Source: Thermoproteota archaeon
GTDB taxonomy: Archaea; Thermoproteota; Thermoprotei_A; Sulfolobales; Acidilobaceae
NCBI GenBank assembly: GCA_030549835.1
Contig: JAUQQR010000012.1
Coordinates: 1-39,931, forward strand
Reading direction: 5' to 3'
DNA: 39,931 nucleotides
Below the pieces are notes generated by a model, which searched no databases, was not told where the DNA came from, and saw nothing but the letters and a program-made list of their open reading frames with translations. Below are positions 2,815 through 27,894 of this stretch, piece by piece. The first letter of the stretch is position 1, and each line of letters starts with the position of its first letter. Position numbers and translations under genes: made by a program.

Positions 2815-3584
2815 TGCTCTATCTCACCTCTCAGGTTTTCTATAGGCTCTACTTCAATATATTGGGAGAAGAAGTTTTGAATATTCTCTAAGTCTCTCTC
2901 TAGGAATTCTAGAGCTCTAGGATGACTGTGGTCAACAGCTTGAGATACATCAATTATCCAGGGCTTACTGTCCCAAATCATTATATTATACTCACTTAAA
3001 TCAGCATGTATGAGTCTAGCATTACAGACTATACGTTTAACTTGCTCAACAACCTCATAGTATATATTTTGTAATTCATCTAGGCTAAGATCATTAATAG
3101 CTTCAACTAGTAGCGGAGCCCTATAGCCATCCTCACCTATAAAGCTCATAACTAAGACATTACCTATAAATGTTATAGGTTGAGGTACTCTAACGCCATT
3201 ATCAAACATTCTCTTAAGATTCTTAAACTCCTTCCTAGCCCACTCATATATAAGTCTTCTAAAATTACCCTCAGGGATAGACTCAAATCTAGGATCTCCC
3301 TCAATATACTTCCTAATACTCTTCTTAAAATCAGAAGTTGCTGTAAGATATATCTTAATAGCTAAATCTCTCCCATCCCACCCCTTAGCCCAGTAGATTC
3401 TAGCTTCTTTACCCGCACTTACTACACCTTTAAGCTCTCTGATAACCTTCTTAGTCTCAAGTCTATATATGAATCCTAGTGTTATAGAGTCGAATACTTC
3501 CTCAACTATCTCAAACATATCCTCATCTTTTAATCTCCTAGATTCATCTTTAAACTTTTTAATCCACCTAGCCTTCTTTCTCAA
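2793..3584 (-). CDS. rio1: RIO1-type atypical serine protein kinase/ATPase
   Basis: Rio1 is an atypical kinase/ATPase acting late in small ribosomal subunit maturation. The RIO1-type nucleotide loop SAGKEA is at 56-61, the ATP lysine is K77 in AIKIY, the catalytic loop HADLSEYN is at 193-200 (D195, N200) and the metal site IDVSQ is at 211-215 (D212). The SxGKEA loop separates it from Rio2, which also carries an N-terminal winged helix absent here. The TTG start at 3584 lies 4 bases after the aif1A stop, indicating coupled translation. The length of 263 residues is normal. Confidence 0.93.
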   Translation of the reverse strand: MRKKARWIKKFKDESRRLKDEDMFEIVEEVFDSITLGFIYRLETKKVIRELKGVVSAGKEARIYWAKGWDGRDLAIKIYLTATSDFKKSIRKYIEGDPRFESIPEGNFRRLIYEWARKEFKNLKRMFDNGVRVPQPITFIGNVLVMSFIGEDGYRAPLLVEAINDLSLDELQNIYYEVVEQVKRIVCNARLIHADLSEYNIMIWDSKPWIIDVSQAVDHSHPRALEFLERDLENIQNFFSQYIEVEPIENLRGEIEHCLLIVK

Positions 3585-3588
3585 TTAT

Positions 3589-3924
3589 CTAAGCACCTAC
3601 AGATTCTAGGAGCTCTTCCGATATTAAGCCTGAGTCTAGTAAGAATTTGACCTCTTCTCTCTCATACCTATGAACTACATCGCCTTTCTTATCCCTAGTA
3701 CCCCATGGTAGGAATAGTATTACATCACCCTCCTTAATCCATACTTTTCTTCTCATCTTACCAGGTATTCTAGCCATATATGTCTCATTATCTGTACATA
3801 GTACTTCAACGTAACCTGCTCCTATTAGTCTTTGAACTACGCATAGTATTGTACCCTCCTCTGAGCTAGGTAATGGTAGCTCTCTACTCTTCTCTTTAAA
3901 CTCCTCTTTTCTAGCTTTCTTCAA
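3589..3924 (-). CDS. eif1A: Translation initiation factor aIF1A
   Basis: aIF1A binds the A-site region of the 30S subunit during initiation. The 111-residue protein has a basic N-terminal tail and a single S1/OB-fold domain. It shows the family-typical segments AGYVEVLCTD, RIPGKMRRKVWIKEGDVILF and a C-terminal acidic helix. The TTG start at 3924 overlaps the 3' end of nmd3 by 14 bases. Its place inside a ribosome-biogenesis operon is consistent with coordinated control of 30S assembly and initiation. Confidence 0.93.
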   Translation of the reverse strand: MKKARKEEFKEKSRELPLPSSEEGTILCVVQRLIGAGYVEVLCTDNETYMARIPGKMRRKVWIKEGDVILFLPWGTRDKKGDVVHRYEREEVKFLLDSGLISEELLESVGA

Positions 3925-5014
3925 CTAAGCTCACACCAATAACATATAATGTGTCTCTAAGTAAATAAGCTAAGTAGTCTAGTCCTAACGTCATCTTACC
4001 AGCTAGTACTCTTATCTTATCCCTAGGATGCTCGATTACTGTTAAGCTATTATTATCTTGAAATACTAATGACTCCTTAGATTCACTAATAAACTTTAAT
4101 CTTAATATTCTACCATCTAGTTTAACCTCTCTAGTTATAAGCTTATAGTCTCTAAGATCCTCTAGTTTAACCTCTACTATACTACCCTCACTAGTATCAA
4201 GTAGGGAGGCTTTCAAACCAGTCAATCCTACTAGTATATAAGTTGAGCCCCTATAGGATAGTATACTACCAACTCCTACATTTAATATCCTTGTTGATAT
4301 GCTTAGAATACCCTTCTTCTCCCCGCCCTTCATACCTGTAACTTTAAATGACTCACTAGTTAATCCTCCATATTTAGATCTAATCTTAGAGGCTATTAGT
4401 CTAGCTATATTCTGGTCTTCAACCATAATATCTAAGCCGTCTCTAGTACTCTCAATAGATACTATAGATGAACTCACTCTACCCCCTAGACTTGACAGAA
4501 ACATATTTATATCTCTCTTAATTGAATCATTAAGCTTCCCAATTACTGGTCTAACCTGTATGATAGCCGAATAGCCAGACTTTAATATCCTCTTAGAACA
4601 TATAGGACATACTTGCCTACTCACCTTAACACTAATAATCCTAGATTCTTCAACGATCACATTACCACTCCTACCAGCAATAATAACCTCAAGGCCATAG
4701 ACATTACGCCCCTCATAGCTGGAAACCCTAACATCTTTAATCCATACCTCATCGATAGCGAAAGTAGGCTTAATCTTACGACTCAAATATAGTAGAGCAT
4801 ACTCTCTAATAGACTCCTCAATACTAGATGAGCCCTCAACCCACTCACCTTGAAATCTATAAGAACCACACAAACCACAATAGGTGAACTCTAGAGGTTC
4901 AATTGAATAAGTTAAACCATAAACCTTAACATAACATTCACTACATAGAGCACTGATAAACTCCCTACCACTAACACCACACTTAGGGCAAATCCTCGAA
5001 GATACACTAACCAC
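3911..5014 (-). CDS. nmd3: NMD3-family ribosome-associated zinc protein
   Basis: This is an archaeal homologue of NMD3, which in eukaryotes is the adaptor for export of the large ribosomal subunit; archaea keep the ribosome-binding core. CxxC pairs at C9/C12, C24/C27, C46/C49 and C136/C139 form the expected N-terminal zinc-binding region. The 367-residue length is normal for an archaeal form without the export-signal tail. The GTG start at 5014 is first in the operon; an AT-rich TATA-like stretch at 5043-5053 (minus) lies about 30 bases upstream. Directly upstream of that is copy A of the perfect 183-bp repeat (5061-5243). Confidence 0.88.
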   Translation of the reverse strand: MVSVSSRICPKCGVSGREFISALCSECYVKVYGLTYSIEPLEFTYCGLCGSYRFQGEWVEGSSSIEESIREYALLYLSRKIKPTFAIDEVWIKDVRVSSYEGRNVYGLEVIIAGRSGNVIVEESRIISVKVSRQVCPICSKRILKSGYSAIIQVRPVIGKLNDSIKRDINMFLSSLGGRVSSSIVSIESTRDGLDIMVEDQNIARLIASKIRSKYGGLTSESFKVTGMKGGEKKGILSISTRILNVGVGSILSYRGSTYILVGLTGLKASLLDTSEGSIVEVKLEDLRDYKLITREVKLDGRILRLKFISESKESLVFQDNNSLTVIEHPRDKIRVLAGKMTLGLDYLAYLLRDTLYVIGVSLVEES

Positions 5015-5060
5015 CCTCTATAAGGAAAATAAGGTAAAGGAATTAACTATAACATAATAC

Positions 5061-5243
5061 TTTCAATTTTTTATTGCTTCTGTCTTTACTATATTTATCT
5101 AGCTTATTGTTGGATTTTGGAAAATTCATCAAGCCATATGAGGAGCCGGATGTCTAGCTATAGGCATATGTCTCGTAGCTAAACCTCTATACCATTGAGT
5201 TTTGAGCTTTAGTTTCGCAAGGCTTGGATACTGTTTAGTGCCC
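5061..5243 (-). repeat. 183-bp perfect inverted repeat, copy A
   Basis: Read base by base, 5061-5243 is the exact reverse complement of 25804-25986, with no mismatch found over 183 bases. The similarity stops abruptly at both ends. On the minus strand the unit begins GGGCACTAAACAG and ends AAAAAATTGAAA, 46 bases before the nmd3 start. Copy B has the same orientation relative to glmS. Its longest reading frames are about 12 and 23 codons and are not convincing. It holds a TATA-like ATAAATATA about 27 bases from its downstream end. Confidence 0.95.
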
Positions 5244-5571
5244 AACGTTGAGAATAGTAGAGGTGTGTTCATAAGATTTTTCTTATGGCCGAAGAATTGA
5301 AATTAACTAATGTAAACAAACATAAAACCCGGAAATAGTTGCATTAGGCAACTCCTAAGCTGAAGATTATGGTGAATATAATATGCTTAAGAGTACTATC
5401 AACAGTTAATAGCTCTGAGGAGTCTAGTGTGAAGAATGACGTAGTAATGTAAAATCCAAGATATAGAGTTCGTATAGAGTAGTACTATGGTTTGTATATA
5501 TAGTAATATATCTATGTTTAATATATATTTTCATAGTATACACTAATTAACTCTATCCTTCTTATAGAACT
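5244..5571. other. Intergenic region with two small perfect hairpins
   Basis: No gene is seen here. CATAAGA (5270-5276) pairs perfectly with TCTTATG (5281-5287) around TTTT. AGTTGC (5337-5342) pairs with GCAACT (5348-5353) around ATTAG. CAACGTTG at 5243-5250 is palindromic and begins at the last base of the repeat. The stretch from about 5490 is very AT-rich (TATATATAG, TAATATATAT) and probably contains the malic enzyme promoter. Confidence 0.5.
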
Positions 5572-24107: not shown

Positions 24108-25322
24108 GTGAGCGTTGAGATTAAGAAAGCTAGGTACATTGTAGTAGCTATGGTTATTGCATTAATTATTGGGGGGCTTCTTGGATACGTTGGTGGTGAA
24201 ACCGTCTCTAATCTTAGAATACTTGGTGATATTTTTGTTAGAATACTTAGAACTATTATACCACCTCTCATATTCTTCACTATAGGCTATGCTGTTGCTA
24301 GTATCCTAGATCTTAGAAGGCTTGGTAGTATACTAGTAATAGTTATTATAATTCTCATAGGGACTAGTATAATAGCAGCTAGTCTTGGCGTAGTCTCCGG
24401 CCTAGTATTTAGGCCTGGTGAGGGAATTGGGTTAGAGGTTCCTCCAGGATATACGCCTCCTAAGCCTGCTACTTGGGTTGACATTGTCATGTCATTCTTC
24501 TCAATAGACTTCTCAGAGCTATTAACTGTTGGTGGTGCTCTTAAGCTTATAGTATTTACCTTAATCTTCGGCCTAGGAGTTGCCCTGCTTGGAGATGCAG
24601 GGGCTCCAATAAGATCATTCCTTGAGGCTGGTAGTAGGGTTTTTATTAAGATAGTATCACTACTAATGTACTATGCTCCTATTGCTGTATTCGGCTACTC
24701 CGCATGGCTTGTAGGTGTTTATGGACCAGAGATTGCTAAAGGCTATATTAAGCTTGTTATAGCATTATATACATTTGCACTATTCCACTTTATAGTAATA
24801 TATGGTCTAATGGTTTGGATTGCAGGCTTAGGTCCTAGGAGGTATTTTAGGGAGCAGCTTGAGCCTTTCCTCGTAGCATTTACTACTAGGAGCTCTGTCG
24901 CAACACTCCCAGTAAATATGAGGGCTGCTGAGAGGATGGGTATACCTAGAGATATATTTAATATAACATTACCGATTGGAGCCACAGTTAACATGGATGG
25001 TACAGCTCTATACCAAGCACTCTCAGCATTGTTTGTAGCACAACTTTTCGGGATAACTCTAGGCTTTGATAAACTCTTACTCCTAATACTAGCAGCACTT
25101 ATAGGGTCAATAGCAACAGCAGCAATACCTGGTGGTGGGCTAATAATGCTAGCATTCGTACTCTCAACTGTAGGGCTACCACTAGAAGGAATAGCAATAA
25201 TATTGGCTGTAGACCCGATACTCGACGCTATAAGGACTGCTATTAACGTAAGTGGAGATAATGCTTCAAGTGCCCTACTAACCAGGATACTATATGGGAG
25301 GTTCTTGCAGTCAACTATTTAA
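24108..25322 (+). CDS. Dicarboxylate/amino acid:cation symporter (DAACS, GltPh-like)
   Basis: This is a secondary transporter of the GltPh family, importing acidic amino acids or C4-dicarboxylates with Na+ or H+. Conserved features are the HP1 motif TRSSV (260-264; the third Ser of the usual SSS is Val), NMDGT in TM7 (295-299), the HP2 tip PGGG (341-344), and D373, R376 and N380 in TM8, corresponding to D394, R397 and N401 of GltPh. The retained Arg supports acidic substrates. The length of 404 residues is normal. The start is GTG 24108 with a clear ribosome-binding site. Confidence 0.92.
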   Translation: MSVEIKKARYIVVAMVIALIIGGLLGYVGGETVSNLRILGDIFVRILRTIIPPLIFFTIGYAVASILDLRRLGSILVIVIIILIGTSIIAASLGVVSGLVFRPGEGIGLEVPPGYTPPKPATWVDIVMSFFSIDFSELLTVGGALKLIVFTLIFGLGVALLGDAGAPIRSFLEAGSRVFIKIVSLLMYYAPIAVFGYSAWLVGVYGPEIAKGYIKLVIALYTFALFHFIVIYGLMVWIAGLGPRRYFREQLEPFLVAFTTRSSVATLPVNMRAAERMGIPRDIFNITLPIGATVNMDGTALYQALSALFVAQLFGITLGFDKLLLLILAALIGSIATAAIPGGGLIMLAFVLSTVGLPLEGIAIILAVDPILDAIRTAINVSGDNASSALLTRILYGRFLQSTI

Positions 25323-25366: not shown

Positions 25367-25760
25367 GTGCGTGTCACCGCTTTTTCCCTGAGCTTCCTCC
25401 TCACGGTCTGCAATGGGTCTCGGAAACTCTGGGTCACAAGACTTTTATATGCACTCAGGGGTTTATTTATAAGTTATACCTCTATGGGTTTAGATTACGT
25501 AACAATTAGCCTACTATTTCACAGTAGCTACAAAAATAGCCATATTAAGGAGCTCAATCATAGAGAGGATAGTGTGGAAAGTACAACTCTACGGATTAAA
25601 AACAGTATATGTAGAACTGAGAGAAGCAACTAGTTCACGATAAACACGCAGAAGCAATGAGAAAATTAAGATTAGATAAACATACTATTAGCGCGTATCT
25701 AATCGCGTCAAGAACTCTAAGCATCCTAGAGAGACCTACAAAACCTAAAGAAAAGAAACA
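25367..25760 (+). mobile_element. Decayed transposase-like element, copy 1
   Basis: This is repeated in inverted orientation at 39627-39931. A frame with interruptions gives VATKIAILRSSIIER, then VWKVQLYGLKTVYVELRE, then after a frameshift MRKLRLDKHTISAYLIA. This resembles the RuvC-like end of a crenarchaeal IS605 OrfB/TnpB-type transposase, a recalled resemblance of low certainty. A stop and a frameshift break it, so it is not functional. It carries about 75 bases (about 25443-25520) absent from copy 2. Together with the 183-bp repeat it fills most of the gap 25323-26049, where I see no intact gene. Confidence 0.55.
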
Positions 25761-25803: not shown

Positions 25804-25986
25804 GGGCACTAAACAGTATCCAAGCCTTGCGAAACTAAAGCTCAAAACTCAATGGTATAGAGGTTTAGCTACGAGACATATGCCTATAGCTAGACATCCG
25901 GCTCCTCATATGGCTTGATGAATTTTCCAAAATCCAACAATAAGCTAGATAAATATAGTAAAGACAGAAGCAATAAAAAATTGAAA
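25804..25986 (+). repeat. 183-bp perfect inverted repeat, copy B
   Basis: This is the exact reverse complement of 5061-5243. It ends 63 bases before the glmS start and just ahead of that gene's TATA box, in the same relative orientation as copy A before nmd3. It begins about 44 bases after the transposase-like relic, but copy A has no such relic beside it, so the two are separate units. A TATA-like ATAAATATA occurs at 25949-25957. Confidence 0.95.
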
Positions 25987-26049: not shown

Positions 26050-27894
26050 TTGTGTGGTATTATTGGTATTTGTGCTATTAAGCGGAATGTTGCGCCTATG
26101 ATTTCTCTTGGTCTTAAGAGGCTTGAGTATAGGGGTTATGATAGTGTTGGTGTTGCATTGGTACTTAATGAGAGTAGGGTTCATGTTTTAAAGGCTAGGG
26201 GTGATGTTGATAGTTTCTTATCTAGGTTTAAAGTTAGTGAGTTTAAAGCTTATACTGGGTTAGGTCATACTAGGTGGGCTACTCACGGGGCTCCTAGTGA
26301 TGTTAATGCTCATCCGCATACTGATTGTAGTGGTAGGATTGCTGTTGTACATAACGGGGTTATTAGGAATTTCTCTATCATTAAGAGTATCTTAGAGGTT
26401 AGGGGTCATAGGATTACTAGTGAGACTGATACAGAGCTTATAGCTCATTTAATTGAAGATGAGATTCCATTCTCATCTAACTTTTTCGAGGCTTTTATTA
26501 GAGCTATCTCTAGGCTTGAGGGTAGTTATGCTCTAGCAATTATTAATAGCAGTGAGCCTAATAAGGTATATTTCGCTAGACTTAAGAGTCCGCTCGTCTT
26601 AGGTCTAGGTGATGGTTTTAATATTATAGCAAGTGATATCCCAGCAGTAATAGAGTACACTAGGAGAGTTTTGACGCTAGAGGATGGAGAGGTAGGGTGG
26701 ATTACTCCTACTGAAGTTAAGTTATTTAAGTTAACAGATGATGGTATAGCTGAGGTTAAATATGAGAGTATAATGTCTAGGGTTAGGTTTATAGAGTGGA
26801 GTTTTGAGGAGGCTACTAGGCTAGGCTATCCACACTTTATGCTTAAAGAAATAGTTGAGCAGCCAAATGCCATAAAGAGTACTTATGATGGTAATATCGA
26901 TGACCCAATTGTTAAGTTGGCTGCATCTCTCTTAAATGAAGCCAATCATATAGTCTTAGTTGGAGCTGGTACTAGTTACCATGCTAGCCTCATAATATCA
27001 TATTTCTTATCTAAGATTGCTAAGATTAAATCTACTCCTCTAATAGCCTCAGAGTATAAAGTTGTTGAAGATTCTATAAGCAGAGAGGATGTCATACTAG
27101 CTGTAAGCCAGAGTGGAGAGACATATGATACGTTAGAAGCTATTAGGGCATTTAAGAGTAGAGGGGCTAAGGTTATTGGTATAACTAATGTTGTTGGGAG
27201 TGCTTTAAGTAGAGAATCAGATATAGCTATATATATGAGGTGTGGTCCTGAGATCGGAGTAGCCGCAACTAAAACCTATACATCACAGATTATGGTTGGT
27301 AGCATCTTAGCAATCTATAGTGCTATCGAGAATAAGAGTTTAGATAATAGTAGTACTAGAAACCTTATAGATGACTTATCTAAAGCCTCAGATATACTAG
27401 GATTATCTATAAAGACTTCACTTAGTATATTAAATGATAGTCCACTTAGAGGTATTAAGAGCATGTATATACTAGGTAGAGGTCTTGGATCTATGATTGC
27501 TAAAGAAGCTTCACTTAAGGTTAAAGAGATAGCATATATACATGCTGAATCCTACCCTGCAGGGGAGAGTAAGCATGGGCCTATAGCTCTAGTAGAGGAG
27601 AAGTTCCCCGTATACTTTATAGCTACAAGTGATAGCCTAGAGATTATAGGTAATATTATGGAGATGGCTTCTAGGGGAGCTAGTATTGTTGTAGTTAAGC
27701 CTGAAAACGTAAATCTCAATATTTCAAGCTCTCACTCTATAAATGTAGTTGATATGCCGCCGGTTAATAGCTTACTCTTAGAGCCATATACTCTAATACC
27801 ATACTTCCAGCTCTTAGCATATAAGGAGGCTGTAGCTAGAGGCTATAACCCAGATAAGCCTAGGAATCTAGCTAAGACAGTAACAGTAGAATAA
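26050..27894 (+). CDS. glmS: Glucosamine-fructose-6-phosphate aminotransferase (isomerizing)
   Basis: GlmS makes glucosamine-6-phosphate from fructose-6-phosphate and glutamine, the entry to UDP-GlcNAc. The glutaminase domain begins CGIIGI, with the nucleophile Cys directly after the initiator, which fixes TTG 26050 as start; GHTRWATHGAPSDVNAHPH follows. Two SIS domains carry GAGTSYHAS and SQSGETYDT, then GRGLGSMIAKEASLKVKE and ESKHGPIAL. The C-terminus NLAKTVTVE matches the conserved tail. The length of 614 residues is typical. There is no glmS ribozyme-like leader; repeat B lies immediately upstream of the promoter. Confidence 0.97.
   Translation: MCGIIGICAIKRNVAPMISLGLKRLEYRGYDSVGVALVLNESRVHVLKARGDVDSFLSRFKVSEFKAYTGLGHTRWATHGAPSDVNAHPHTDCSGRIAVVHNGVIRNFSIIKSILEVRGHRITSETDTELIAHLIEDEIPFSSNFFEAFIRAISRLEGSYALAIINSSEPNKVYFARLKSPLVLGLGDGFNIIASDIPAVIEYTRRVLTLEDGEVGWITPTEVKLFKLTDDGIAEVKYESIMSRVRFIEWSFEEATRLGYPHFMLKEIVEQPNAIKSTYDGNIDDPIVKLAASLLNEANHIVLVGAGTSYHASLIISYFLSKIAKIKSTPLIASEYKVVEDSISREDVILAVSQSGETYDTLEAIRAFKSRGAKVIGITNVVGSALSRESDIAIYMRCGPEIGVAATKTYTSQIMVGSILAIYSAIENKSLDNSSTRNLIDDLSKASDILGLSIKTSLSILNDSPLRGIKSMYILGRGLGSMIAKEASLKVKEIAYIHAESYPAGESKHGPIALVEEKFPVYFIATSDSLEIIGNIMEMASRGASIVVVKPENVNLNISSSHSINVVDMPPVNSLLLEPYTLIPYFQLLAYKEAVARGYNPDKPRNLAKTVTVE

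Follow-up and report, generated by a model that had tools for sequence, protein, structure and literature searches.

Probable CRISPR leader relics in an identical inverted pair ahead of nmd3 and glmS in a Sulfolobales-order archaeon

An identical non-coding pair facing two genes

How did the same non-coding sequence come to stand, without a single difference between its copies, ahead of two unrelated housekeeping genes? The window, 39,931 nucleotides long with a G+C content of 38%, is the entire contig C29 of genome G000, a draft of 1.42 Mb in 68 contigs (96% complete) that appears to be a metagenome-assembled genome. Copies A (5061-5243) and B (25804-25986) were complementary at 183 of 183 nucleotides, in inverted orientation and spaced by 20,560 nt, and the sequences around them diverged abruptly at either side of the unit, confirming what the preliminary description had reported. 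Copy A lies 46 nt from the GTG start (5014) of nmd3 (3911-5014, minus strand; Pfam NMD3, E = 3e-42), and copy B lies 63 nt from the TTG start (26050) of glmS (26050-27894, plus strand; SIS and GATase domains, E = 8e-43). These distances were as first given, both genes are supported by Pfam, and the orientation of the unit towards both genes and its lack of coding capacity were also borne out. The nmd3 orthologues of congeners are merely 41-47% identical.

An intact gltP gene encoding a dicarboxylate symporter (24108-25322, plus strand; Pfam SDF, E = 2e-105) was found upstream of copy B, and a gltP-like fragment of 107 nt (5347-5453, minus strand), 83% identical to the intact gene at 24478-24584, was found beyond the tail of copy A, in the same relative order and orientation. 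At the divergence of this fragment (83% over 107 nt), the probability of 0 differences in 183 positions is about 1.6e-15, and the identity of A and B is thus not due to chance, although an assembler can merge near-identical repeats and, in a 68-contig metagenome-assembled genome, the "100%" may mask a few differences. Remnants of another repeated sequence, probably IS-derived, occur beside copy B (25367-25759) and at both contig ends (39627-39931 and 131-158); the two short peptides from these remnants had no Pfam match.

Probable leader and repeat of a subtype I-D array class

In a working CRISPR locus, the leader serves both as the array promoter, for crRNA, from which transcription traverses the repeat, and as the docking site in spacer insertion. 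Read towards their genes, A and B each open with a leader of roughly 163 nt whose last letters are ..GACA; a single degenerate repeat of a 24-nt class comes next. The leader of copy B spans 25804-25966 (plus strand) and its repeat, GAAGCAATAAAAAATTGAAA, 25967-25986 (plus strand); the identical leader of copy A spans 5081-5243 (minus strand) and its repeat, GAAGCAATAAAAAATTGAAAG, 5060-5080 (minus strand). By alignment, these are degenerate 20-21 nt forms of the parent repeat GAAGCAATCAAAAAAGACTGAAAG.

When searched as GAAGCAATYRRAAAAGACTGAAAG with up to three mismatches, the parent repeat formed arrays in eight of the 214 genomes of the order (45, 73, 29, 33, 23, 18, 12, and 7 matches), while the reversed pattern, used as a control, gave two matches in all. 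The 45 copies in G104 follow a period of about 75 nt and were exact in all 18 among the matches listed, and the spacers in arrays of this class are 35-59 nt long. We then compared the leaders. Profile R1, built from seven copies, all from G000, grouped copy A with seven other leaders and with the leaders of true arrays. Its matches were correctly oriented and abutted the repeat on its leader side; they lay in front of the 27-repeat array of G158 (E = 1.1e-9), at short units of G142 (2.5e-9), G031 (6e-8 and 5e-7), and G110 (9e-6), and before the 29-repeat array of G161 (6e-4). With the repeat excluded, copy B aligned to the leader of the 27-repeat array with z = 14.6 (CATCCGGCTCC..GGCTTGATGAATTTTCC versus CATCCGGTTCC..GGCTTGATGGATTTTCC), whereas the leaders of six arrays with other repeats scored near background. 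The most conserved leader motif, CATCCGGCTCCTCATATGGCTTGATGAATTTTCC (25895-25928, plus strand, in B; 5119-5152, minus strand, in A), aligned to CATCCGGTTCCTAAGGAGGCTTGATGGATTTTCC upstream of the G158 array. Genes adjoining the arrays of G158, G113, and G161 matched Cas3d, Cas5d, Cas7d, Cas6, Cas1, and Csa3-type models, and weakly Cas10d; arrays with the parent repeat thus adjoin predicted subtype I-D cas genes in these three genomes, and the 27-repeat array looks active.

Several lesions separate A and B from such arrays. No second repeat was found within about 240 nt downstream of either copy, and the parent TATA box (CTTATAAG region) is deleted in both, as alignments show. Neither cas1 nor cas6 was matched in the 96% complete, 68-contig draft, in searches that did match the positive controls and several relatives. 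The search of G000 covered these two cas families, and the genome may still carry other cas genes, or an array on a contig missing from the draft. A relic is thus the best reading of A and B, both of which would be inactive. The TATA-like box first noted near the end of the unit holds as a promoter-like box at that place; the box of the parent leader itself is gone. Similarly, the suggestion of a small RNA gene holds for the ancestry of the unit, as a CRISPR leader is a crRNA promoter. Rfam, run over the window, returned tRNAs only and no known structured RNA family at A or B, and a plain small-RNA family was rejected.

The parent system was not seen nearby, as GAAGCAATCAAAAAAGACTGAAAG was absent from the other genomes of the same genus and family. 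Near relatives carry 24-nt CRISPR repeats of other types, which resemble the family 24-mer in length and 3' end. A GTDB-wide scan with the repeat pattern gave one archaeal match, the Sulfolobales metagenome-assembled genome SKW88, in which the layout of TATA box, leader, and repeat is present twice; the second locus reads leader, repeat, 49 nt, repeat, and then a more degenerate repeat. The main array of SKW88 uses a different repeat, GAATCTGAACGATAGAATTGAAAG. Resemblance to the repeats of neighbours is thus insufficient. Viral contigs gave no match to the repeat class, neither they nor GTDB matched the exact leader pattern, and a DNA search with copy A alone in 40 relatives gave nothing beyond G000, because leaders diverge fast.

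Further units in the genome and their neighbouring genes

A and B belong to a larger family, which the preliminary description had not seen. DNA searches of G000 itself returned diverged copies, 71-86% identical, on contigs C63 (two), C24, C38, C43, C57, C27, and C58, and a search with profile R1 added members on C19 and C9. The family comprises about 11 leader units, mostly with one repeat each: A, B, and about nine more (C63:21935, C24:37926, C38:28337, C63:33259, C43:5239, C57:12070, C27:1, C19:4792, and C9:1220). A lone CRISPR repeat without leader lies at G000:C58:34373-34396, about 25 nt past tRNA-Leu(TAA). Towards the outward gene, the common layout is a motif GCTCCTCATATGGCTTAATGAATTTTCC, a BRE/TATA-like CAATAAAGCTTATAAGG, about 23 nt ending in ..GACA, and then GAAGCAATCAAAAAAGACTGAAAG. 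The older units on C57, C19, and C9 retain chiefly the promoter-repeat half. Only A and B, within the family, have lost the TATA stretch and have their last element shortened to GAAGCAATAAAAAATTGAAA.

At G000:C24:38071-38087, about 45 nt beyond its leader, the C24 unit has the 17-nt repeat core, GAAGCAATCAAAAAGAC, a second time and inverted; the simple collapse of an array does not account for this. Contig C27 opens with a perfect repeat (1-24, before cobT), the exact 24-mer from which the 45-copy array is built, and contig C43 breaks off within another (5330-5343), which suggests an unassembled copy or array. These breaks, together with the 68-contig draft and the IS-like relics at both window ends, could also point to an assembly artefact, in which a short-read metagenome assembler duplicated one leader or merged two similar copies. 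However, A and B are each flanked by unique genes in a plausible order, and eight other units have distinct sequences, so that the family at least is real; we regard an artefact as highly improbable.

The number of dispersed copies, the freshly copied look of A and B, and the inverted copies of the repeat core at both ends of the C24 unit are features that a MITE, with an end merely resembling a CRISPR repeat, would share. This reading is already contradicted by the homology of the pre-repeat sequence to the leaders of real arrays in other genera. Moreover, terminal inverted repeats and target duplication were not found at A, B, and one of the C63 units (C63a), nor was a related element found in viral contigs, and a MITE is hardly credible here. 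A MITE with a 24-nt terminal repeat had been our first reading of the C24 copy and was dropped once that repeat was recognised as belonging to CRISPR.

Eight of the 11 units face a gene start: those of nmd3 (A), glmS (B), PCNA (C63), cobT (C27), a PHP-domain gene (C38), dcd (C19), an FBP aldolase/phosphatase gene (C9), and a SCO1-like gene (C57). This count would fit a recruitment of the units as promoters or upstream elements of their neighbours, a CRISPR leader being turned into a housekeeping promoter, and so would the promoter-repeat half mostly kept by the old units. At C19 (1262-1350 of the C19 locus), the 45 nt that separate dcd from the repeat relic contain no TATA-like stretch, and the leader's own box is thus the only evident dcd promoter. 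However, the share of 8 in 11 does not reach significance (one-sided binomial, about 0.11), and only four of nine units outside G000 face a start. A and B have lost the parent TATA box, which makes a promoter role doubtful for the pair, and AT-rich TATA-like stretches were seen by inspection in the 46 and 63 nt between the copies and their genes. Recruitment as promoters is thus unlikely.

These counts also bear on the functions first proposed for the pair. Its multi-copy nature was established and most units of G000 face starts, but the orientation is inconsistent elsewhere (four of nine), and promoter targeting is not supported by these counts; with neither terminal inverted repeats nor target duplication at A and B, the proposal of a mobile element that targets promoters is likewise unsupported. 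Nor is there support for a module that would couple the assembly of ribosomes with amino-sugar synthesis: the other copies precede the PCNA, cobT, dcd, FBP aldolase/phosphatase, PHP, and SCO1-like genes and also lie at gene 3' ends.

The C38 unit reads leader, repeat, 32 nt, repeat, 58 nt, repeat, and is the sole unit of G000 with at least two repeats separated by spacers. Its 58-nt insert (positions 2987-3044 of G000:C38:25500-31500) is exactly bounded by repeats, fits the spacer range of the class (35-59 nt), and is 90% identical to part of the neighbouring deoC, in inverted orientation; it has the look of an old spacer derived from the genome itself. The 5' side of the insert carries no CCN motif. 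A changed base in the insert turns GTATCTAATGG into the TATA-like GTATATAATGG, ahead of the PHP-domain gene.

Such a chromosomal "spacer" would also suit CreA-type genes for crRNA-like regulatory RNAs, in which a leader promoter and an ectopic repeat yield a transcript that guides a Cas complex onto host genes. Ectopic degenerate repeats with such regulatory roles are known in haloarchaea (PMC9458426), and SKW88 retains a leader followed by two repeats 49 nt apart. Nevertheless, neither cas6 nor cas1 was found in G000, A and B each retain a single repeat without a spacer, the TATA box is missing from its parent position in both, and no toxin-like gene lies beside them. CreTA is recognised by a repeat-spacer unit with a partial match to a nearby promoter, together with a Cas effector; A and B have no second repeat, and cas6 was not found. 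A role as regulatory RNA genes is thus very unlikely.

Copying of the pair and comparison with known CRISPR remnants

The lesions shared by A and B are not carried by the other units, which suggests that the two were copied or gene-converted after decaying, from one decayed copy. It is very likely that A and B are relics of a lost subtype I-D CRISPR, each a leader with its first repeat, and that they were homogenised after decay, most likely by ectopic gene conversion. Both would descend from the leader and first repeat of the array class that serves I-D CRISPR-Cas elsewhere in the order. The arrays would then have been lost, leaving one shortened repeat at A and at B and a deleted parent TATA box, and one of the two copies would finally have been copied onto the other. 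The pair is thereby recent, while the family is old.

Because the identity stops exactly at the ends of the leader-repeat unit, with no target duplication, conversion between existing relics appears to be the likeliest route, judged from two copies, A and B; a fresh duplication is the alternative. With its order and orientation matching those at B and its divergence at 17%, the gltP fragment near A is a hint of an old duplication common to both sites. If so, the leader, with 0 differences in 183, was homogenised later. A gltP duplication that carried the leader with it fits in order and orientation but was set aside as an explanation, since 17% versus 0% divergence requires a later conversion.

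The same leader sequence, leader-repeat junction (..ACA followed by GAAGC), and repeat class characterise the subtype I-D arrays of the order, which consist of a leader and GAAGCAATNRRAAAAGACTGAAAG repeats. In A and B, by contrast, spacers are absent, the only repeat is degenerate, the TATA box is missing from its parent position, and searches of the genome found neither cas1 nor cas6. In M. jannaschii, the long-repeat/short-repeat elements of Bult et al. 1996 reportedly repeat one leader-type sequence across many loci, with anything from few to many short repeats behind it; those elements are active multi-repeat arrays, whereas G000 has single repeats and an apparent loss of cas genes.

Orphan and relic CRISPR arrays are already known. 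CRISPR 3 of P. abyssi (PMC3124441) and the I-F orphan arrays of E. coli (PMC8616872) are likewise decayed loci without neighbouring cas genes, but they are confined to one or two loci and keep several repeats with spacers, in contrast to about 11 dispersed units of a leader and a single repeat. The leader-bearing mini-CRISPR arrays of Sulfolobales viruses (PMC6858448) are likewise very short and have a BRE/TATA leader; the units of G000 are chromosomal and without viral match, and they bear leaders, whereas the stand-alone repeats of viruses (PMC6858448) are leaderless. Repeat-like sites within transposons are also bound by Cbp1 (PMC10883916). The literature searched did not describe leader and single-repeat relics dispersed as a family; such a family, seen also in two or more other species, is the unusual feature here.

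An apparent promoter-targeting repeat is thus reinterpreted as a fossil of CRISPR immunity. These results suggest that CRISPR leaders can multiply and persist as dispersed single-repeat units where cas1 and cas6 are not found. As array-finding software needs several repeats, units with a single one are invisible to it. Leader relics may offer a route to tracing lost CRISPR systems, to asking what seeds new array loci, and to testing the recruitment of leader promoters by host genes. The dispersal is not unique to G000, as G031 (99% complete) has leader units at four scattered places, each with one or two repeats; one pair of these units is 94.7% identical over 188 nt. A broader proposal is that such units form a persistent, self-copying population in some genomes of the order, through gene conversion or an unknown mobility, outliving Cas and serving locally as promoters of housekeeping genes, e.g., dcd; this is speculative and, on present evidence, rather unlikely. 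Finally, a recurrent unit made of AATAAAACTTATAAGGC and a GC-rich hairpin-like sequence of about 150 nt was observed at several places of G017, contig C1 included, and is probably a different repeated element.
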